A stretch of 40,316 bases of DNA from Gammaproteobacteria bacterium (lineage in GTDB: Bacteria; Pseudomonadota; Gammaproteobacteria; SZUA-140): contig WFNO01000085.1 in the NCBI GenBank assembly GCA_015488555.1, positions 1 through 40,316 on the forward strand. Reading direction: 5' to 3'. The notes under the pieces were generated by a model. It was not told the DNA's origin, ran no database searches, and saw only the letters and a program-made list of their open reading frames with translations. The first letter of the stretch is position 1, and each line of letters opens with the position of its first letter. Shown here in pieces: positions 2,954 through 35,462 of the stretch. The translations under genes were made by a program, and so were the position numbers.

Positions 2954-3100
2954 ATTTATGCCCAGCTCCTGGGCATCTTGAATCCCCTACATTTGCCCGA
3001 CGTGCGCAAGACCCTGGCCCTCACCCACAAGGCACGAAACCTCCACGGGGATTTGGAAGAATTCAGATCCCTGGAAGAACAGATCTTCATCATGTTCTAA
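2954..3100 (+). pseudogene. In-frame protein-like remnant after the tandem stops
   Basis: After TAA TAA (2948-2953) the same frame stays open for 48 codons to a TAA at 3100. Its translation, including the run VRKTLALTHKARNLHGDLEE, looks protein-like in composition. There is no ATG with a ribosome binding site. It could be the decayed end of a longer version of the preceding gene or chance reading. I cannot assign a family. Confidence 0.25.
2958..2976 (+). terminator. Terminator-like hairpin without T-run
   Basis: A perfect 8-bp stem, ATGCCCAG / CTGGGCAT with a CTC loop, begins 7 nt after the stop of the small gene ending at 2950. It is followed by CTTGAATCC and lacks a T-tract, so intrinsic termination would be weak. 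It may instead stabilise the 3' end. Confidence 0.35.
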
Positions 3101-3267
3101 CCATTTCAATAGGTTATCGGATAGAGGACTAGAATATCAAAAACGACCTTCTGCTCCCTGGACAAGCAATTGACCAATATGTTATGCTTTTTCTAAAATT
3201 CCTGCGGCAGCGGTGGGAACCGTAAATAGTTAATAGTTCGGGGGCGACATCATGGGGAAAAGAGCAA

Positions 3268-3288
3268 CCTCCACCGTTGAGGTGGAGG
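3268..3288 (+). promoter_or_regulatory. Hairpin that sequesters the Shine-Dalgarno of the 3294 gene
   Basis: CCTCCACC (3268-3275) pairs perfectly with GGTGGAGG (3281-3288) around a 5-nt loop. The GGAGG inside the 3' arm is the only good ribosome binding site for the ATG at 3294, with 5 nt between stem and start. If the stem forms in the mRNA, translation would be blocked until it melts or is remodelled. This geometry is seen in RNA thermometers and other translational switches. Confidence 0.55.
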
Positions 3289-3293
3289 AACGA

Positions 3294-4583
3294 ATGCCGG
3301 CAGTGACGAAAAACACGAGCCGGAATCCGAAACCCATCATACAAATGGTCACATTGGCCTGCGGTTTATTCTTCGTCACTTCGGCACAGGCCACTCATCC
3401 GCTGACATCCACCGCTGGGCGCGTAGGTCCACCCGTAGATTATGGACTGTGGTCCATCACCAACACCTCGGGCGAGGCAGTAGTCAATGACTCCAGTCCT
3501 TGCGCGACCGACCCCAACTGGACCTGCCTCGACATCGCCAAAGAAGATGGTTTCCTCTATCAGCAGATCACCACGCCAGACAACGAAACCTACATGCGCA
3601 CCGTACTGGTGGATCCGGGTGTCGGCTCAGGCGATGCCACCACCTTGCCTTTCAGCAACGAGACTTACACACCGATGAAGACAAAAGGCGTGAACACGGC
3701 GGGCGACTGGATTTTGGGTACCAGCAATCCTTCTACCCTGGGACTGGCTGGGCAGGGCTTGGCTGCACGCCAGATCATGCGCGACAACGCTAACGGTTTT
3801 GAAACCACCGTGGAATTGCAGAACGGCTTCGCCAGGGCGGTGATGGGTACCAATGATGGATTTTCCTCTCCAGACGATCCGATCTACCATTGGTGTGAAA
3901 CGACCAATCCAGGAGATCCAGCGGCAGCGGCTACCTGCGCCCAGGACCTGGCAGAGAAAGCGTGGTCAGTGAAAATCGAGCAATTCGTCACCGACCGTAC
4001 CAATCCAGCGGAGAATCTCTTCGATTCTGAATTCAGCCTCATCAACTACAATGAGATCAACACCGCAGGTGCAGGGACGGGTGGTCTGCAAACTGCACAG
4101 CTTCGCGGCCAGTTAATCGACATCGCCCAAGGAGTCACGGATGTGCCCAGTGGCGAGAAACAAAAATTCGACCTACGTAACCGCTGGGGAAGGGTGGGCT
4201 ACGAGTGGTCCTGCGGAGGCTTTTTCGTCACCTGTGAGCCTTATAATTTGACGGATGGTGATGGCGGGAACCCATTGGTGCTGGATACCATGAACGTCAC
4301 CTGGAATGCAACAGATCGAATCAAGGCACTCTGGATGGGGTCTGATATGGGTGGCGGCCTAACCAATGGCGAGTTCGTTCTCACCTCGGCGAGTGTTAAC
4401 GACGGTGCACCGGTGCGCGAACTGTCGCTGGACACACCGCCTGTCGCCCCTCCCTCCAGTTGGCCCAGCAGTCCCTTCGCCGACCTAAACTGGGCCGTGG
4501 ACACCGCCAATGTGGATGATCCCTTTGCTGCACCACCCAATTCCATGGAGGCCATGCCAAGAACGGTTCCACCGACCTTCTAA
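3294..4583 (+). CDS. Secreted protein, one-copy paralogue of the 324-2390 product
   Basis: 429 residues from the ATG at 3294. An upstream ATG at 3252 is in frame but has a weak ribosome site and would add 14 residues before the MPA-TKNT start shared with the paralogue. A signal peptide ends at about residue 33 (SAQA). Shared features are GLWSITNTSG, a YQQITTPDNETYMRT segment, the PGV-GDAT-PF stretch, FSNETY and VTWNATDRIKALWMG (335-349). The tail VDDPFAAPPN...PRTVPPTF parallels VDPFTQPPP...TPPPF in the larger protein. Several cysteines (about residues 70, 78, 201, 215, 307, 314) suggest disulphides in an exported fold. A strong terminator follows. Function unknown. Confidence 0.85.
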   Translation: MPAVTKNTSRNPKPIIQMVTLACGLFFVTSAQATHPLTSTAGRVGPPVDYGLWSITNTSGEAVVNDSSPCATDPNWTCLDIAKEDGFLYQQITTPDNETYMRTVLVDPGVGSGDATTLPFSNETYTPMKTKGVNTAGDWILGTSNPSTLGLAGQGLAARQIMRDNANGFETTVELQNGFARAVMGTNDGFSSPDDPIYHWCETTNPGDPAAAATCAQDLAEKAWSVKIEQFVTDRTNPAENLFDSEFSLINYNEINTAGAGTGGLQTAQLRGQLIDIAQGVTDVPSGEKQKFDLRNRWGRVGYEWSCGGFFVTCEPYNLTDGDGGNPLVLDTMNVTWNATDRIKALWMGSDMGGGLTNGEFVLTSASVNDGAPVRELSLDTPPVAPPSSWPSSPFADLNWAVDTANVDDPFAAPPNSMEAMPRTVPPTF

Positions 4584-4609
4584 CTTAATCACCATTCTGC
4601 AGTTTCCAG

Positions 4610-4646
4610 CACGAAAAAACCCGCAGCTTGCGGGTTTTTTCGTGCC
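4610..4646 (+). terminator. Strong intrinsic terminator after the secreted-protein block
   Basis: A perfect 17-bp stem (4610-4626 with 4630-4646) with a GCT loop lies 27 nt after the stop at 4583. The arms carry A6 and T6 tracts beside a GC core (CCCGCA / TGCGGG), so it could act in both directions. It separates the accessory block from the cytochrome-porin gene. Confidence 0.9.
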
Positions 4647-4826
4647 TCTGACGTGTGGCCGGATTTTTCCTAATGTTTACGCCGCTCCTGCCGCCATAGC
4701 AAGTTGGCCAGAAGCTGCGAAGTTCTTTCGCCAAATGCCGACACAAAGCGAAATGTTGGCGCATTATCTGCATCTCCTGGCATGGGACATTACCTAGATT
4801 CCGACCCAGCATGAAGGAGCAATCCC

Positions 4827-6347
4827 ATGGCTGAAAAACAATGCAAACGCAAAACCACGCGTCAGATTTCCCTCGGGTTGTGGGCCACTGCCATCGCCCT
4901 GATTCTCGTGGCCGAGAATGCCAGCGCCATTCCGGCCTTCGCCCGCAAGTACCAGGCCAATTGCGCCCTCTGTCACACCAGCGAACCGCGGCTCACGGTG
5001 TTCGGGCAGCAGTTCAAGGAGAACGGCTACCAGATGCCGGGCTCCCAGGACGGCTCTGAGACCGCCAAACACGTCTTCGACGGCGCCCAGGGACCGGTCA
5101 CCCTGGATGACATCTCCAAGATCATGGCGGTGCGCATCCGGGCGGATCTGCAGAAGGCCTCCTTCAAGGAGGAGACCGACGAGATGAAAGCGGAGAACGT
5201 GCGCGATCAATGGGATCTGCAAATGCCCAAGATCGTCAATCTGTTCTTCGGCGGCACGGCGCGCAAGAATCTCAGTTTCTTCATGGAAACCGAATTCAAC
5301 GTCCAGGAAGGGGAAGAACCTGCCGTCCGTTTCGAACGTAGCTTCCTGGTCTTTTCCAACCTGGGCGGCAAACAGGGCGTGGCCAATCTTACAGTAGGCA
5401 AGTTCGACCCCTCCGGGCTCTATGCCTTTCCCACTCACCGCCAGCAGATCAATCCCATCGGTCCGGTAGCGGAGGCCAGTAGCTTTCCGCCCACTATCAA
5501 CCGCATTCCTTTGTTGCCCCTGGCCTTCGCCAGCAAGATGTTCGGCCTGACCAAGGGCTCGGCTTACGAAGGAGATGAAGGCTATGCCATTCTGCCGGTG
5601 CAACCTTTTCTCTACAACGCCCCGGTACAGAACAGCATCGCCATTCATGGCCGTCCATTGGGTTTCGGCAGCGGGTTCATGTACCAATTGGGCGTAGCCA
5701 TCAACGACAAGGCCAGCGCCAGCGGTACGGCCAAGGAGAACCGCTACGACACCTACGTGATGGGCCGCTACGACTGGATGTGGGGCAGCGCCGCCTGGCA
5801 GGCCTCGGCCTTCTATTACCAGGCGCCTGACGCCGCAATCGGTACCCTCCATATGGATGGTGCACATCCAGGAGATCACAATTATACGTATGCCTCCGAT
5901 ACAACAGACATCACCCGCTGGGGCATCGGCACCCGGGTGCAGTGGAACGACTGGGACATCTACGGCACCTACATCACGGACCAGATCGACAAACCCTCCT
6001 TCACCGGTATGGCAGCCAACGCCAAGTGGGAGGACACCGGACAGGGCCTGAGCCTGGAGGCGGACTGGCGCGTGAACGCCCACTGGATGCTGGGCCTGCG
6101 CTACGACTGGATGGCGCCCGGCGGGCTCAAACAACTGCCCATGGGGAGTACGGAGCCGCTCAACATCGACGCCTCCTTCCTCGCCCCCATCGTCAAGTTC
6201 TATCCCAGCCCCAATATCGGGCTCTACGCGCGCGCGCATTTCAATCTGGAAGACAGCGCCAAAAACCCCATCGGCGGGGGCAGCGAAGAACACCCCCTCA
6301 CCAACCTGGAAAACATGGTGAGCCTGGGAGTGGACATGGCCTTCTGA
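4827..6347 (+). CDS. Cyc2-like outer-membrane monohaem cytochrome-porin fusion
   Basis: 506 residues. A signal peptide (cleavage near ASA, residue 34) is followed by a short cytochrome segment: IPAFARKY, one haem site CALCH (46-50), then PRLTVFGQQFKENGY. This PAFAR...CxxCH...FG..FK..GY pattern is that of the Cyc2 family, in which a haem-bearing plug is fused to an outer-membrane beta-barrel. The remaining ~430 residues are rich in alternating aromatic/polar strands and end in Phe (VDMAF), typical of Omp85-assembled barrels. Cyc2 proteins accept electrons from extracellular Fe(II). Related fused porins of unproven function exist, so iron oxidation is inference. AAGGAG precedes the ATG. The gene appears monocistronic between two terminators, and no partner periplasmic cytochrome is adjacent. 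Confidence 0.7.
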   Translation: MAEKQCKRKTTRQISLGLWATAIALILVAENASAIPAFARKYQANCALCHTSEPRLTVFGQQFKENGYQMPGSQDGSETAKHVFDGAQGPVTLDDISKIMAVRIRADLQKASFKEETDEMKAENVRDQWDLQMPKIVNLFFGGTARKNLSFFMETEFNVQEGEEPAVRFERSFLVFSNLGGKQGVANLTVGKFDPSGLYAFPTHRQQINPIGPVAEASSFPPTINRIPLLPLAFASKMFGLTKGSAYEGDEGYAILPVQPFLYNAPVQNSIAIHGRPLGFGSGFMYQLGVAINDKASASGTAKENRYDTYVMGRYDWMWGSAAWQASAFYYQAPDAAIGTLHMDGAHPGDHNYTYASDTTDITRWGIGTRVQWNDWDIYGTYITDQIDKPSFTGMAANAKWEDTGQGLSLEADWRVNAHWMLGLRYDWMAPGGLKQLPMGSTEPLNIDASFLAPIVKFYPSPNIGLYARAHFNLEDSAKNPIGGGSEEHPLTNLENMVSLGVDMAF

Positions 6348-12038: not shown

Positions 12039-13379
12039 CTATCCTTCCGGCAGCGCTACAGTCATGCTTGCTCCGCCGTCCTCGCTTCTGTCGATGCGGC
12101 AGCGCCCGCCATAGGCTGCCGCGATGTCCTGGACCATGGCCAGGCCGATGCCATGGCCTGGCACGCTCTCGTCGCCTCGCGCGCCTCGTTCCAGCAGCGC
12201 CTGGGCCTGCGCCGGATCCATTCCCGGGCCGTCATCGATCACCTCGATCTCCATGCCCTGCTCCGTACGACGGGCGGTGACGGTGACCCGGCTGCGGCAC
12301 CACTTAGCGGCGTTGTCCATGAGATTGCCCAGGATCTCCATGAGATCGCTCTCGTCGCCCACGAATCCCAGGGCTTCCGGTACCTGCACCCTCCAATGGA
12401 TGGCCTTGTCGGCATAGACCTTGTCCAGGGCCTGGACGACCTTTTCCACTAGCGGCCGCACCGCCACGGGGGCGGTCATGGCCGAGGGACCCGACGTGGC
12501 CCCCCGTTGCAATTGATATTCGATGATGCGGGACATGCGCGCCACCTGTTCCTCCACCACCCGGCGCAGGGTCTCGGCGGAGGCCTCGCTCTCCACCGTG
12601 CTGCGCAACAGGGCCAGGGGCGTCTTCAGGCTGTGGGCGAGGTCGTCCAAGGCGTTGCGGAAACGGCGCAGGTGTTCGCGCTCACTGCGTACCAGGGTGT
12701 TGAGATTGTCCGTGAGGGCCTGCAACTCCCGGGGATAGCGCCCTTCCAGGCGGGTCTTGACCCCGGCTTCGATGTCCCGCAATTCGGCGGCCACCTGGCG
12801 CAGTGGCCGCAAGCCCCAGCGCAGGATGAGCCCTTGCACCGCCAGCAACACCGCCGCCACCATGCCCAGCGCGCCCCACAGGGTGCGGCGGAAACCGCGG
12901 ATATCCGCCTCCAGTGCGTCCAGCACCTCGGCCACGCTGAAGGTGTAGCTGCGCGCCGGTCCCGCGTCCTCCTGCCAGCTCACGCCGATATTGAAGCTGT
13001 AGAGCCGCACGCCGTTCACTTCCAGGGCCTGGAAACGGCGCTCGCCGCGGCGCAGATTGTGAGGAAAGGGAATATCCAGCTCCGCCGCCGAAGGCGACAC
13101 CCATGCATAACGCCCGTCGTTGCGCGACACACGGCCATAGAGGCCGGAACCCGGCGTGAACAGGCGTGGAATGGGCAGGGCGTTGGTGATGTGCACCCGT
13201 CCCTCGGCATCGGGCTCCATCACCGCCACCAGGGCATAGGCATAACCCTGCAGGCGTTCCTGCAAGGCCGACCAGGCGCTGTGGCGATAGGCGCCGTCCA
13301 ACACCAGGCCGGTGACACCGAAGAAGGCCACCAGGACCAGCGTGGCCGCCAGCAGGATACGGGCGTGCAGGGAGAGCAT
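12039..13379 (-). CDS. PhoQ-like sensor histidine kinase
   Basis: 446 residues. An N-terminal membrane helix (about 8-30), a periplasmic sensor of about 130 residues and a second helix (about 165-187) are followed by a HAMP-like linker. The kinase core shows the H-box HSLKTPLALL, N-box NLMDNAAKW, DDGPGMD and GIGLAMVQDIAAAYGG. It should autophosphorylate on the H-box histidine and pass phosphate to the regulator encoded just upstream, whose stop overlaps this ATG by one base (TGATG). The order of features matches PhoQ/QseC-like class I kinases. The signal is unknown: I do not see the acidic Mg-binding cluster typical of enterobacterial PhoQ. Confidence 0.9.
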   Translation of the reverse strand: MLSLHARILLAATLVLVAFFGVTGLVLDGAYRHSAWSALQERLQGYAYALVAVMEPDAEGRVHITNALPIPRLFTPGSGLYGRVSRNDGRYAWVSPSAAELDIPFPHNLRRGERRFQALEVNGVRLYSFNIGVSWQEDAGPARSYTFSVAEVLDALEADIRGFRRTLWGALGMVAAVLLAVQGLILRWGLRPLRQVAAELRDIEAGVKTRLEGRYPRELQALTDNLNTLVRSEREHLRRFRNALDDLAHSLKTPLALLRSTVESEASAETLRRVVEEQVARMSRIIEYQLQRGATSGPSAMTAPVAVRPLVEKVVQALDKVYADKAIHWRVQVPEALGFVGDESDLMEILGNLMDNAAKWCRSRVTVTARRTEQGMEIEVIDDGPGMDPAQAQALLERGARGDESVPGHGIGLAMVQDIAAAYGGRCRIDRSEDGGASMTVALPEG

Positions 13380-14764: not shown

Positions 14765-14806
14765 AAAATCAAAGGGGTCAGACCCCAAATCAAAGGGGTC
14801 AGACCC
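14765..14806 (+). repeat. Two tandem 21-bp units with palindrome GGGGTCAGACCCC
   Basis: Two identical adjacent 21-bp units each contain CAAAGGGGTCAGACCCC, whose core GGGGTC-A-GACCCC is a perfect inverted repeat. From general knowledge, this motif recurs in many proteobacterial genomes, often near IS200-like/REP-associated transposase genes. No such transposase is in the window. The pair sits just upstream of the lexA promoter. Confidence 0.8.
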
Positions 14807-14839
14807 CATGAAACCCCGTGAAACCAAAGGTGCAGGCCT

Positions 14840-14867
14840 TTGAAGTTCTCCAAAAGTTCTCTATACT
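14840..14867 (+). promoter_or_regulatory. lexA-dinB promoter
   Basis: TTGAAG (14840-14845), a 16-bp spacer and TATACT (14862-14867) form a plausible sigma-70 promoter. The expected start point is within a base or two of the lexA ATG at 14875, and no Shine-Dalgarno precedes that ATG, so the transcript may be leaderless. Confidence 0.55.
14845..14859 (+). promoter_or_regulatory. Putative LexA operator, GTTC-N7-GTTC direct repeat
   Basis: GTTC (14845-14848) and GTTC (14856-14859) are separated by exactly 7 nt, within a larger direct repeat AAGTTCTC spaced 11 bp, one helical turn. It lies between the -35 and -10 hexamers. GTTC-N7-GTTC is the established alphaproteobacterial LexA box, unlike the CTGT-N8-ACAG palindrome of most Gammaproteobacteria. 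Position and spacing suggest autorepression of lexA-dinB. Confidence 0.65.
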
Positions 14868-14874
14868 CGCCTTC

Positions 14875-15492
14875 ATGGACCTCGATGATGCACTCGATGC
14901 GCTCTCACCCCGGGAGCGCGATACCTATGTATTCATCCGTCGCTTCCTGGCACGCCACGGCCGGGCCCCGCTGCTGACGGAGATCGCCGCGGGACTGGGC
15001 ATCCGTTCCAAGGGCACGGCACATCGTTACGTGCAGGCCGTGGCCCGGGCCGGCCTCATCGAGCTGCGCCCGGGCCGCCATCGCGGTATCCGCCTGCGGC
15101 CCGGTACGGCCGCCACCACCCTGCCCCTGCTGGGCCGCATCGCCGCCGGCCGCCCCATCGAGGCCATCCCCGACCAGGATCACATCGATCTGAGCCAGTT
15201 CTTCATGGGACCCGACCGCTTCGTGCTGCGGGTACAAGGAGACTCCATGGTGGAAGCCGGCATCCTCGACGGCGACATGGTGATCGTGGAATGCAGCGAG
15301 CATGCCGATGACGGTGACATCGTGGTGGCCCTCATCGACGGTGAGGAGGCCACACTGAAATATCTGCGCCGCAACCACGACGGCAGTGTCACCCTCGTCC
15401 CGGCCAACGCCGCCCTGTCCCCCATCACGTACAGCGCGGAGCGGGTGCACATCCAGGGCGTGGTGGTGGGCCAATTGCGCCGTTACCGGTGA
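14875..15492 (+). CDS. lexA: LexA repressor
   Basis: 205 residues from the ATG at 14875; this start aligns with the LexA N-terminus, whereas the longer frame from 14818 would begin inside the repeats. The N-terminal winged helix contains LSPRERDTYVFIRRFL, and its recognition region reads RSKGTAHRYVQAV, closer to the alphaproteobacterial RSKSGIHR pattern than to E. coli RSPNAAEEH. The cleavage site Ala-Gly is in LLGRIAAG, the catalytic Ser in GDSM and the Lys in EATLKYL, so RecA-stimulated self-cleavage should work. It overlaps dinB by 4 nt (GTGA). The pair looks like an SOS-controlled mutagenesis cassette, perhaps a second LexA system in this genome. Confidence 0.9.
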   Translation: MDLDDALDALSPRERDTYVFIRRFLARHGRAPLLTEIAAGLGIRSKGTAHRYVQAVARAGLIELRPGRHRGIRLRPGTAATTLPLLGRIAAGRPIEAIPDQDHIDLSQFFMGPDRFVLRVQGDSMVEAGILDGDMVIVECSEHADDGDIVVALIDGEEATLKYLRRNHDGSVTLVPANAALSPITYSAERVHIQGVVVGQLRRYR

Positions 15493-16742
15493 GCGCCGTG
15501 GACCGCTGCCCCCGCATCTGGCCCCGCGCCATCATCCACGTGGACATGAACGCCTTCTTCGCCGCCGTGGAACAGCGCGATTTCCCCGAATTGCGCCGCC
15601 GCCCCCTGGCCATCACCAACGGCCTGCAGGGTACCTGCATCATCACCTGTTCCTACGAGGCGCGGGCCTTCGGCATCCACACCGGCATGCGCCTGCAGGC
15701 GGCGCGGCGCCTGTGCCCGCAGCTCGTCCAGCGCCCCGCCCGCCCCCGTGTCTACGCGCAGGTCTCCGCCGCCATCATGGCGGCCCTGCGGGATCACATC
15801 AGTCCGGACATGGAAGTGTTTTCGGTGGACGAGGCCTTCCTCGACGTGACCCACTGCCAGCGCCTGCACGGTACGCCCCTGCGCATGGCACGCATGGTGA
15901 AGGCCCTGGTCGCCGAGGTGAGCGGCGGCCTGCGCTGTTCGGTGGGCGTGAGCGGTGACAAGACCACCGCCAAGTTCGCCGCCAAGCTGGAGAAACCCGA
16001 CGGCCTCACCGTGATTCCACCCTGGGAGGCCCGCGAACGCCTGCGCGACATCCCGGTCACCACCCTGTGCGGCGTGGCCGAGGGCATCGGCCGCTTCCTC
16101 GCCCGTCACGGCGCCCGCACCTGCGGCGACGTGGCGCGACTGCCCGTGAGCGTGCTGGCGCGGCGTTTCGGCAACCTGGGGCGACGCATCTGGCTCATGT
16201 GCCAGGGGCGGGACCCGGACCGCATTCACCTGGAAGCCCCGCCACCCCGTACCCTGGGACACGGCAAGGTGGTACCACCGGGCACCCGCGACCGGACCCT
16301 GCTGCTCACTTACCTGCAGCACATGAGCGAGAAGGTGGCGGCGCGCCTGCGGCGCCATGCACTGGAGGCCCAGGTCTTCTTCGTCGGCATCAAAGGAAGG
16401 AACGAATGGCTGGGACAACGCCTGCGCACGGCCGTGCCCGTCTGCAACGGCGGGGCCATCTTCGAATTGTGCCGGCGCTTCATGGCGGAGACCTGGCAAG
16501 GGGAGCCGGCCTTCCAGGTCCAGGTGACGGCGCTCGCACCACAGCCACGCCACCTGCAGTTGTCCCTGTTCGCAGAAGCGGCACCGGGCGTACCGGCAGG
16601 AAACGACAGCGCCCTGCACGCCGTGATGGACGAGATCAACCGCTGTTACGGTGAATTCACCATCGCCCCCGCCCGCCTGTTGCAGCGCTCCACTATGCCC
16701 GACGTGATCGCCCCTGCCTGGAAGCCGTCAGGACACCGGTAA
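15489..16742 (+). CDS. Y-family translesion DNA polymerase (DinB/Pol IV-like)
   Basis: 417 residues from a GTG overlapping the lexA stop. Catalytic palm motifs are HVDMNAFFAAVEQRDF and SVDEAFLDV, with SVGVSGDKTTAKFAAKL in the fingers/palm region and a little-finger domain after about residue 240. The length is near Pol IV (~350) or UmuC (~420). The C-terminal motif QLSLF (near residue 360) resembles a beta-clamp-binding peptide, as expected for a polymerase recruited to stalled forks. No imuA, dnaE2 or umuD is adjacent. Cotranscription with lexA implies induction by DNA damage. Confidence 0.88.
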   Translation: MSAVDRCPRIWPRAIIHVDMNAFFAAVEQRDFPELRRRPLAITNGLQGTCIITCSYEARAFGIHTGMRLQAARRLCPQLVQRPARPRVYAQVSAAIMAALRDHISPDMEVFSVDEAFLDVTHCQRLHGTPLRMARMVKALVAEVSGGLRCSVGVSGDKTTAKFAAKLEKPDGLTVIPPWEARERLRDIPVTTLCGVAEGIGRFLARHGARTCGDVARLPVSVLARRFGNLGRRIWLMCQGRDPDRIHLEAPPPRTLGHGKVVPPGTRDRTLLLTYLQHMSEKVAARLRRHALEAQVFFVGIKGRNEWLGQRLRTAVPVCNGGAIFELCRRFMAETWQGEPAFQVQVTALAPQPRHLQLSLFAEAAPGVPAGNDSALHAVMDEINRCYGEFTIAPARLLQRSTMPDVIAPAWKPSGHR

Positions 16743-32809: not shown

Positions 32810-34774
32810 TCACCAGTGGCGTCTCAGCGCCACGCGCCACAAGGCCTCGGGCTCGCGTTGAAAATCCATCTTCAGCGACCAGGAACGGGAGAGCACGTAT
32901 TGCAGCACCGCACTGCCCACCCAGTCCACATCCCGGCGGCCGTTTTCCAATCCCAGGCGCACATGGCTCCTCAACGCCTCCGTCCAGCGGTACAACATTC
33001 CGACTTCCGGCCGCAACCTGAGGTACGGGGCAGTGCTGTGCAAGGAAGGCGTCAAAAAGGTATAGAGCATGGCTCGCCCCGCCTGCTTCGACTTGCCGAT
33101 GGAAAAATAGAACTGATGATCATACCCCCCGTCCTGCTCCATGAGACTGCGCAACTGAATGCGCCAGGACCACTCGGAACTACCCGGCAAGGGAGACAGC
33201 GCGTGATGCAAGATGCGCAAATAATCCAATTGCTGGACGACCGGTCGTTCCGAACGCAGAGACAGGCGAAGATCGAACACGGTCAATTCACCGCCTTCCA
33301 GGGCATTGCGGCCGGACGGCTCGCGGGAGAACGCGGTCAGGTTCCACAGCGGGCGCTGGTCGTCACCCGGGTATTGCACGATACCGGCCCCCAGCACCAG
33401 AGGCTTGGTCCCGGCGGTGGGCGACGGCCGCGGCGCAGGGGCCTGCTCCTGCGCCGAGGGCGGCAACTGCAGCCGCTCCACCAGCAGCGCGTGTTTGAGT
33501 TCCCGGGTCGTGGCGGACACCTCGGGTAATTCCCCGAGATAACGAAAGTAATGATAGGACAAGAGGAAATCCAGCAACCGCCGGCGTTCGCCCGCATCCA
33601 GCCCCGCCAGACCTGCTCTGGCCTGCGCCACCGAGGGATGCGCCAGAAAGTCACGGGCGCGCTGCCGCAAGGGCGCCTCCAACCTGCGGTAATGGTGAAT
33701 CAGGCGGCGCTCGGCAGAAGGGTGATAGCGAACCGCGGCGATCAACCCGCTTTCCCCGCGGCGCTTTCTCCGCTCGTCCAGATCGAGCAGGTCGTTGAAC
33801 AACTCCACCGGTGTGTACCACAGGCGGGCGGAACCCATCAGCGGCTCGTCCAGGACCACTTCCAGGCTCCTGCCCAATTCGTAGGCACAGTTCCGGCTCA
33901 AGAAGAAATAGCGCTTCTTCTTGCCCATGATCTCCCAGAGGTGCCGCTGCAGGAGTTCCAATTGCGCCGGATTCAGACGCAATTCGTACTCCCATATATC
34001 GCGGGCCTCGGTATGGGTGTACACCATGTCCTGGGTATAAAAGAATTGATCGGAATAGCCGGCCTGATAACCACCAAAGATGCCCTTGACGACGTAGGCG
34101 ACGACATGCTCCCGTGGCGGCACCAGCGCGCCATAGTTGATCGTGGTATCGAAGAGTCCGTTCCGCTCGCCTGCGGTATCGAGCCGGATGACCGAATGGC
34201 CGAACAGAGAAGCCGGATTGCCCATATAGCCGCTCACCAGCAGGAGACCGACTGAACGAATCCGGTCGCGCCGCAACCAGCGCCTCAAGCGCTGGCAGGC
34301 CGGCGGAATCTCTCGTAGCTCGGGACGGCCGAGCACCCGGGCGAGGAAATAATAACGGGCGGGAAAGCGACAGCGCGGATGCCGTGCATCGCGCACCGGC
34401 CGCTGCAACGCTTGGAGGGTGGCCATGAGTTCGGCACGCGCATCTTTACGCCCCCGCGGACTCAGATAGAAGTCACGGCCGGCGAACGTACCCCTTCCGC
34501 CGCCTCTTTCATAATGCAACAGGCGCAACCACTGGGACTGCGCGGCGATGGACTCGATGCGGGATGTCGAGAGCTGGAATTGCGAGTACTGGGATTGCGA
34601 GAACTGGGATTGCGCGGCCAGCTGCGCGCAATGGCAAAGCAGGAGCAGCAGGACGATGGCCGCAGGGCCGCCGCCTTTGCCCCGCCGGAGAGAGGCCTTC
34701 TCCCCGCAGGGGAATACCCGAACGAAAAGAGCCCCCGGAACGGGGGCTCTGTACCCGGAAAGGGATCGCTTCAA
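32810..34774 (-). CDS. DUF4105-family envelope protein with C-terminal beta-barrel-like domain
   Basis: 654 residues if begun at the TTG at 34774, which overlaps the DUF3015 stop (TTGA). No ATG or GTG allows a later start that keeps the hydrophobic export segment (about 37-54, AAIVLLLLLCHCAQLAAQ). A 15-bp repeat codes Ser/Gln-rich SQY/SQF units just after it. The central part carries the Lnb N-terminal/DUF4105 signature: SVGLLLVSGYMGNPASLFGHS, DTTINYGA, GIFGGYQAGYS, and FFLSRNCAYELG with the Cys typical of NlpC/P60-like papain folds. The last ~200 residues look like outer-membrane strands and end in Trp. A role as an envelope hydrolase is likely; the substrate is unknown. Confidence 0.82.
   Translation of the reverse strand: MKRSLSGYRAPVPGALFVRVFPCGEKASLRRGKGGGPAAIVLLLLLCHCAQLAAQSQFSQSQYSQFQLSTSRIESIAAQSQWLRLLHYERGGGRGTFAGRDFYLSPRGRKDARAELMATLQALQRPVRDARHPRCRFPARYYFLARVLGRPELREIPPACQRLRRWLRRDRIRSVGLLLVSGYMGNPASLFGHSVIRLDTAGERNGLFDTTINYGALVPPREHVVAYVVKGIFGGYQAGYSDQFFYTQDMVYTHTEARDIWEYELRLNPAQLELLQRHLWEIMGKKKRYFFLSRNCAYELGRSLEVVLDEPLMGSARLWYTPVELFNDLLDLDERRKRRGESGLIAAVRYHPSAERRLIHHYRRLEAPLRQRARDFLAHPSVAQARAGLAGLDAGERRRLLDFLLSYHYFRYLGELPEVSATTRELKHALLVERLQLPPSAQEQAPAPRPSPTAGTKPLVLGAGIVQYPGDDQRPLWNLTAFSREPSGRNALEGGELTVFDLRLSLRSERPVVQQLDYLRILHHALSPLPGSSEWSWRIQLRSLMEQDGGYDHQFYFSIGKSKQAGRAMLYTFLTPSLHSTAPYLRLRPEVGMLYRWTEALRSHVRLGLENGRRDVDWVGSAVLQYVLSRSWSLKMDFQREPEALWRVALRRHW
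34574..34618 (-). repeat. 15-bp tandem repeat, three units, in the DUF4105 gene
   Basis: Three units related to CTGGGATTGCGAGAA (plus-strand view) encode Ser-Gln-Phe/Tyr repeats directly after the export signal. Confidence 0.85.
34724..34750 (-). terminator. Terminator after the DUF3015 gene, inside the DUF4105 5' region
   Basis: On the minus strand a 9-bp stem AGAGCCCCC / GGGGGCTCT with a 5-nt loop runs into TTTT. It lies 21 nt after the DUF3015 stop but within the open frame of DUF4105, so it could attenuate expression of the downstream gene. Confidence 0.75.
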
Positions 34775-35259
34775 CTATGCGACATCACGATCTGATAGAG
34801 CAGGCGTGCCTTGTCGACCCGAGCGCTCTCCAGGAATCCCGCCTCGGATACCTTGGCCGCGAAATCACCGCGCACGCGGCTCACGAAGGCCTGCTGCTCT
34901 TCCACGCCGGTCAGGGTGATCAAGGCATCGAGATATTTTCCATGGCCCAATGCCAGTTCCTTCTCCAACTGCGGATAGGTCTGCAGGATGAAGGCCGCGG
35001 TCTTGGCGTCACCTCTGGCGCAAGATTCCGGAGAGGTCAGATTGGAAGAGATCGCCGTGGTACCCAGATCCCAGGTCACGTTCGATACGATAGCGATCAC
35101 GTCAGCAGTGCCTTTATCTTCTACACCCTGAGCGATCAATGCACCCAGCCCGCAATCGGTATAGATTTCTCCGAAAGAACGCTGTTCTTGTGCTGCAACC
35201 GTCCCTGACGAAACCGCAAACAGCAGGACCGAAGCGACCACCAAGGCTGTGTTTCTCAT
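34771..35259 (-). CDS. DUF3015-family periplasmic protein
   Basis: 162 residues. A signal peptide (1-23, ending VAAQ) is followed by DUF3015 signatures: DCGLGALI, SNVTWDLGTTAISSNLTSPESC with paired cysteines, and FLESARVDKARLLYQI. AAAAGGAG precedes the ATG. It is followed by the DUF4105 gene, a pairing I believe recurs in other Gammaproteobacteria. The molecular function is unknown. Confidence 0.9.
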   Translation of the reverse strand: MRNTALVVASVLLFAVSSGTVAAQEQRSFGEIYTDCGLGALIAQGVEDKGTADVIAIVSNVTWDLGTTAISSNLTSPESCARGDAKTAAFILQTYPQLEKELALGHGKYLDALITLTGVEEQQAFVSRVRGDFAAKVSEAGFLESARVDKARLLYQIVMSHS

Positions 35260-35462
35260 TCGTGTTCTCCTTTTGTTCTAAATTTGGTCTGAATCAACAG
35301 TGGTGTGTCCGAAAGACAAGCCCATTCTAAAGGAGATTGCGCTGAATTCAACCGCTAAATCGCCGGTCAGTCAAGCGTGTCATGATCTTCGGCGGAATAC
35401 GCTTGTATACTTGCATCCCCGAGCAGACTCACTCCAGCGTCAGCGATGGCATCACGAAAACC

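Follow-up and report, generated by a model that had tools for sequence, protein, structure and literature searches.

Introduction

Among regulators that have repeatedly switched to a new binding word, LexA is a standard example. In characterised LexA proteins, a dimer on both half-sites blocks the promoter, and damage-activated RecA triggers self-cleavage of the repressor and thereby induction. The site of the P. putida LexA2 protein is GTAC-N4-GTGC. GTTC-N7-GTTC is the motif of Alphaproteobacteria and CTGT-N8-ACAG that of Betaproteobacteria and Gammaproteobacteria, and LexA proteins that read direct repeats have originated repeatedly (PMC3323433, PMC8565304, PMC7739468). The conserved alphaproteobacterial SOS core includes recA (PMC3323433), and two LexA regulons have been described in P. 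putida (PMC3901139). So far, the joint movement of repressor and sites has mostly been inferred from distant groups.

The locus analysed here is a gammaproteobacterial lexA-dinB cassette in a stretch of 40,316 nucleotides, referred to as a whole as the window. Like the lexA2-imuA-imuB-imuC cassette of P. putida (PMC3901139), it is a gammaproteobacterial operon for translesion synthesis that begins with the gene for a LexA of a second type, but, compared by gene layout, it has no adjacent imuA or dnaE2 and carries one polymerase with catalytic motifs. In Geobacter sulfurreducens, lexA likewise shares its operon with the gene for an active Y-family polymerase (lexA-imuB-C-polY, PMC6511836, citing Jara 2003), whereas the operator there is GGTT-N10-AACC (PMC8565304) and imuB-C is present as an additional gene. 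The lexA gene of Acidobacterium capsulatum (Mazon 2006, cited in PMC3323433) also encodes a LexA tied to alphaproteobacterial LexA outside Alphaproteobacteria; lateral acquisition of an alphaproteobacterial lexA is reported in that case, whereas the LexA described here falls outside the alphaproteobacterial clade.

The alphaproteobacterial LexA proteins themselves resemble this one in the half-site core, the 11-bp direct-repeat period, and the S-K-x-x-x-H-R helix pattern. However, the present LexA belongs to a separate protein group, has GTTCTC on both sides of a box that is often forward, and is apparently coupled to dinB in a tiny predicted regulon without recA. The canonical gammaproteobacterial LexA (CTGT-N8-ACAG) is similar in protein architecture, cleavage residues, and predicted autoregulation, but differs in its helix (NAAEEHL versus KGTxHRY here) and in its operator; the present LexA has neither a CTGT-N8-ACAG operator nor an NAAEEHL-type helix. 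We found no description of this gammaproteobacterial class in a search that covered open-access papers, and this absence is weak evidence. The class suggests a testable specificity rule, while the alphaproteobacterial word itself was already known.

The lexA-dinB locus and its predicted operator

The lexA gene (14875-15492, plus strand, ATG start at 14875) encodes 205 aa and is followed on the same strand by dinB (15489-16742, GTG start), which was recognised in the ORF list and by a Pfam IMS match as the gene for a Y-family DNA polymerase of 417 aa. The LexA protein scores 157.7 bits against NCBIfam TIGR00498 (cut-off 110.95) and matches PF01726 (DNA-binding) and PF00717 (S24 peptidase), both above cut-off, and its cleavage site A91-G92, Ser124 (GDSM), and Lys162 (EATLK) are all intact. 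Its recognition region, IRSKGTAHRYV, is as unusual as the initial annotation had described and is tied to the operator; the codons of the recognition helix SKGTAHRYV lie at 15007-15033 on the plus strand, and K46 corresponds to position 40 of E. coli LexA. DinB carries the motifs HVDMNAFF and SVDEAF, plus a clamp-binding-like motif, QLSLF. Because the lexA stop overlaps the dinB GTG (15489) by 4 nt, we infer one lexA-dinB operon in which dinB is probably translationally coupled to lexA. Between 16742 and 18069, no plus-strand ORF longer than 120 aa was found after dinB.

The repeat GTTCTCCAAAAGTTC (GTTC-N7-GTTC) was found on the plus strand at 14845-14859, which confirmed its previously noted alphaproteobacterial spacing. 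The full operator unit, GTTCTC-N5-GTTCTC, is longer and corresponds to GTTCTCCAAAAGTTCTC at 14845-14861. Its two GTTCTC half-sites, recognised by sequence repetition and conservation, lie on the plus strand at 14845-14850 and, 11 bp later, at 14856-14861, and are contained in two copies of AAGTTCTC with an 11-bp period (14843-14850 and 14854-14861). A promoter scan identified a -35-like hexamer, TTGAAG (14840-14845, plus strand), whose final G already belongs to the operator as its first base, and a -10-like hexamer, TATACT (14862-14867, plus strand). The operator fills the 16-bp spacer between them, and the earlier placement of the repeat between -35 and -10 is thereby borne out. This pair is the only promoter-like site of the region in the scan (0.2 in shuffles), and TTGAAA or TTGAAT is kept in relatives at the position of the -35-like hexamer.

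The -10 hexamer ends 7 bp ahead of the lexA ATG (window 14862-14875), and the lexA mRNA may be leaderless because there is no room for a ribosome-binding site between the two. The distance from box to ATG is about as short in genomes G001 and G010 and at loci L229 and L235. The stretch immediately ahead of the lexA promoter (14766-14807) holds two 21-nt copies of AAATCAAAGGGGTCAGACCCC in tandem, and GGGGTCAGACCCC has no further occurrence in the assembly.

We regard the repeat as very probably a genuine SOS switch site, through which LexA would control its own gene and that of an error-prone polymerase. More specifically, the LexA made from the operon would bind the two GTTCTC half-sites, which point the same way and are separated by about one turn of the helix, and LexA bound between -35 and -10 would obstruct RNA polymerase and so shut off both lexA and dinB, the latter probably through translational coupling. 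Once RecA is activated by damage to the DNA, LexA would cut itself at A91-G92, and this cleavage would turn the operon on, allowing for the production of the error-prone polymerase and of new LexA. We infer binding, repression, RecA-driven cleavage, and induction by analogy with characterised LexA proteins, while the sequences themselves show the site, its promoter position, the gene overlap, the intact LexA catalytic residues, conservation of the site with this LexA class, and its recurrence at dinB genes that are not linked to lexA. We are highly confident in reading 14845-14861 as the operator of an autoregulated SOS switch on lexA-dinB.

Conservation of the predicted operator and a possible role of residue 40

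LexA loci were collected from 94 relatives, named public genomes, alphaproteobacteria, plasmids, and two wider draws of Gammaproteobacteria, and were scored for an NTTCTC-N5-NTTCTC pair within 150 nt upstream, a score that ignores the first base of each half-site. Such a pair precedes 110 of the 130 LexAs of this class, but 0 of 33 canonical or other LexAs and 1 of 30 alphaproteobacterial LexAs; by this score, no recognisable pair was found upstream of 20 of the 130 class members. In close relatives the box occupies the same promoter position, typically as cTTGAAaGTTCTCtaaaaGTTCTCTATgct, and almost all related LexAs of the family have this box upstream. The initial annotation had named absence of the repeat from relatives with the same LexA as the finding that would speak against it; the repeat was present there, and the operator call passed. 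The site is a conserved, predicted LexA operator, and the repeat is the mark of a widespread gammaproteobacterial LexA class whose predicted DNA word differs from that of E. coli LexA.

Three sets of LexA can be distinguished by helix and operator. Gammaproteobacterial proteins of the SKGTxHRY type have the operator GTTCTC-N5-GTTCTC, often reading toward lexA, canonical proteins of the NAAEEHL type have CTGT-N8-ACAG, and alphaproteobacterial proteins of the SKSGIHRLI type have GTTC-N7-GTTC mostly on the opposite strand, with half-sites that are mostly GTTCTA- or GTTCC-like. Two helix variants of the class show other period-11 repeats (GATCTC at L025 and ATGTTGC at L270), and no repeat is visible at L127 and L132, where Tyr replaces His in the helix.

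A LexA matching this one at E<=1e-38 was found in 87 of 274 sampled Gammaproteobacteria (about 30%), a set that takes in a few members with other helices. Among the 115 class loci with enough sequence, 55 have a Y-family polymerase gene after lexA; such a gene comes next in 0 of 30 sampled alphaproteobacterial cases. The 320-kb plasmid of Methylophaga thalassica (L191) carries a lexA-DNA polymerase IV cassette at 2998-4837, near arsenic resistance genes and with the site ATTCTC-N5-ATTCTC, and because of this plasmid copy the lexA-polymerase cassette can be considered potentially mobile. On a plasmid of Methylobacter sp. YRD-M1 (L192), a LexA of the SRGSLHKHI subgroup, with GTTCTCTTTTTGTTCTA upstream, is divergent from umuDC; members of this subgroup mostly have no linked dinB and may control other polymerases. 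No close relative was found in the phages searched.

The first base of the half-site varies with residue 40 of the protein (E. coli LexA numbering). Lys or Arg is present at this position in 97 LexAs with a site, which comprise 81 with all-G half-sites, 16 mixed, and none without G, whereas the 13 LexAs with Gln, His, Thr, or Val comprise none with all-G half-sites, 5 mixed, and 8 without G (Fisher p=2.6e-9, a value that ignores kinship and concerns a residue picked after the data had been seen). The best tree contains 6 changes at residue 40, 3 of them on supported branches, and the operator shifts in the same way in nearly all pairings (sign test, supported pairs, p 0.25). Genome G048 (G048:C42) harbors two class LexAs 3 kb apart with different helices and half-sites: L016 combines R40 and the helix SRGVVHRYL with GTTCTC sites, and L125 combines T40 and the helix STGVIHRYV with ACTCTC/ATTCTC sites. 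These patterns are suggestive of a rule in which Lys or Arg at position 40 goes with half-sites starting with G, and Gln, His, Thr, or Val with a shift to A or T.

These LexAs provide a finely graded natural series of helix and operator variants, all from a single bacterial class. Useful cases include G048, with its two such LexAs, and genomes in which canonical and direct-repeat LexAs occur together, since a canonical-type LexA is also present in six of the 94 relatives (G047, G052, G071, G074, G080, and G083). We would put slightly below an even chance the full proposal that this is an old, widespread second LexA class of Gammaproteobacteria, present in about 30% of the genomes sampled, that its operator is NTTCTC-N5-NTTCTC, that its regulon in this family amounts to almost one operon, and that residue 40 in the recognition helix sets the first base of each half-site (G for Lys/Arg, A/T for Gln/His/Thr/Val).

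Origin of the LexA class

On the best tree, the gammaproteobacterial class forms one group on one side of a branch (support 92/77) and stands beside the alphaproteobacterial LexA (93/83), with the canonical LexAs apart (98/99). The alphaproteobacterial LexAs form a tight clade (100/98) from which the present LexA is excluded. The gammaproteobacterial repressors form a group of their own that is probably sister to the alphaproteobacterial LexA, although a tree forcing the class together with the canonical gammaproteobacterial LexA withstood the AU test (p-AU 0.37; masking the helix gave 0.34).

It is possible, if rather doubtful, that a duplicated canonical gammaproteobacterial LexA evolved the GTTC repeat independently of Alphaproteobacteria, a convergence that would change the origin of the class and leave the same switch in place. 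The forced grouping just described is compatible with such an event, and direct-repeat recognition has apparently been gained several times by LexA (PMC7739468), while lexA duplication is often accompanied by a change of motif (PMC8565304). However, the best tree unites the class with the alphaproteobacterial LexA and keeps the canonical LexAs separate, and the identical word, the 11-bp period, and the common helix pattern fit common descent more simply.

Recent transfer of the lexA-dinB cassette and its operator from an alphaproteobacterium appears very unlikely, even though the GTTC-N7-GTTC word, its spacing, and the S-K-x-x-x-H-R pattern are held in common, the best tree sets the alphaproteobacterial LexAs adjacent to the class, and the Methylophaga plasmid carries a related and hence movable cassette. 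The alphaproteobacterial clade lies outside the gammaproteobacterial group, box orientation and half-site flanks differ between the two, the 30 sampled alphaproteobacterial LexAs all lack a Y-family polymerase gene directly after them, and the class is widespread in the sampled Gammaproteobacteria. The label "alphaproteobacterial" given to the box in the initial annotation thus holds for word and spacing, but not, as far as the present evidence goes, for origin. Likewise, its suggestion that operator and repressor had co-diverged or been transferred together stands as co-divergence across Gammaproteobacteria, whereas its second half, read as a recent alphaproteobacterial transfer, is not supported, given the separate protein group and the differing half-sites and orientation.

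Regulon size

Genome-wide site searches were conducted by pattern matching (exact 5+5, one-mismatch 6+6, and exact GTTCTC-N5-GTTCTC). The 94 genomes contain 49 exact GTTCTC-N5-GTTCTC sites, of which 34 are at lexA, 1 is at an unlinked dinB (G006), and 14 are elsewhere. The reversed pattern, used as a control in the same genomes, gave 18 matches against these 14; therefore, sites away from lexA and dinB are not in excess at exact stringency, a setting at which weaker regulon sites could escape detection. In two genomes of the same family, G006 and G007, dinB lies away from this lexA and has its own site, which is exact in G006 (GTTCTCTTTTTGTTCTC) and has one mismatch in G007 (GATCTCTATTTGTTCTC, close to the G007 lexA site TTTCTCTATTTGTTCTC); no site was found at the unlinked dinB relative of the more distant G052. 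At linked lexA-dinB loci, no second exact or one-mismatch site was found before dinB. A box of either type was likewise absent from recA in the source genome and in 29 relatives, scattered one-mismatch matches excepted, and induction would therefore need RecA made independently of this LexA. The lexA-dinB operon is a predicted autoregulated SOS switch with a very small regulon, which suggests that SOS control has shrunk to LexA itself and a single mutagenic polymerase and no longer takes in recA.

The proposal that the locus marks a second SOS regulon, through which numerous repair genes of the source organism would be controlled, is highly improbable. Both LexA types do occur together in other Gammaproteobacteria, such as G083, G047, and G071, but the search for a second lexA in the 95%-complete assembly of the source genome returned none. 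The scan for boxes at recA and other SOS genes, also suggested at the outset, found none at recA; the only exact extended site of this genome is the one at lexA, and its one-mismatch sites are mostly within coding frames, with none before a recognisable SOS gene. Because a single LexA was found, recA has no box, and no other site is convincing, the autoregulated lexA-dinB switch is not a second regulon here.

The bare GTTC-N7-GTTC pattern has 4 matches in the window against 1.0 expected, and 4 were reached in 3 of 100 shuffles. Because one chance match is expected per window, the bare pattern is weak as proof, and the significance of the operator comes from conservation and not from the 4+4 pattern. 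Despite these four occurrences, there is a negligible likelihood that the repeat arose by chance in an AT-rich promoter spacer, as many families share the box, canonical lexA promoters lack it, and it is found again at unlinked dinB genes. None of the other three matches looks like a promoter. Those at 13147 and 39861 lie within long ORFs. The third, GTTCTCCTTTTGTTCTA (35264-35280), was rejected as a LexA box because it overlaps the Shine-Dalgarno sequence of the minus-strand ORF 34771-35259; on that strand it supplies the AAAGGAG ribosome-binding site of this ORF, and its match to the box is probably a coincidence.
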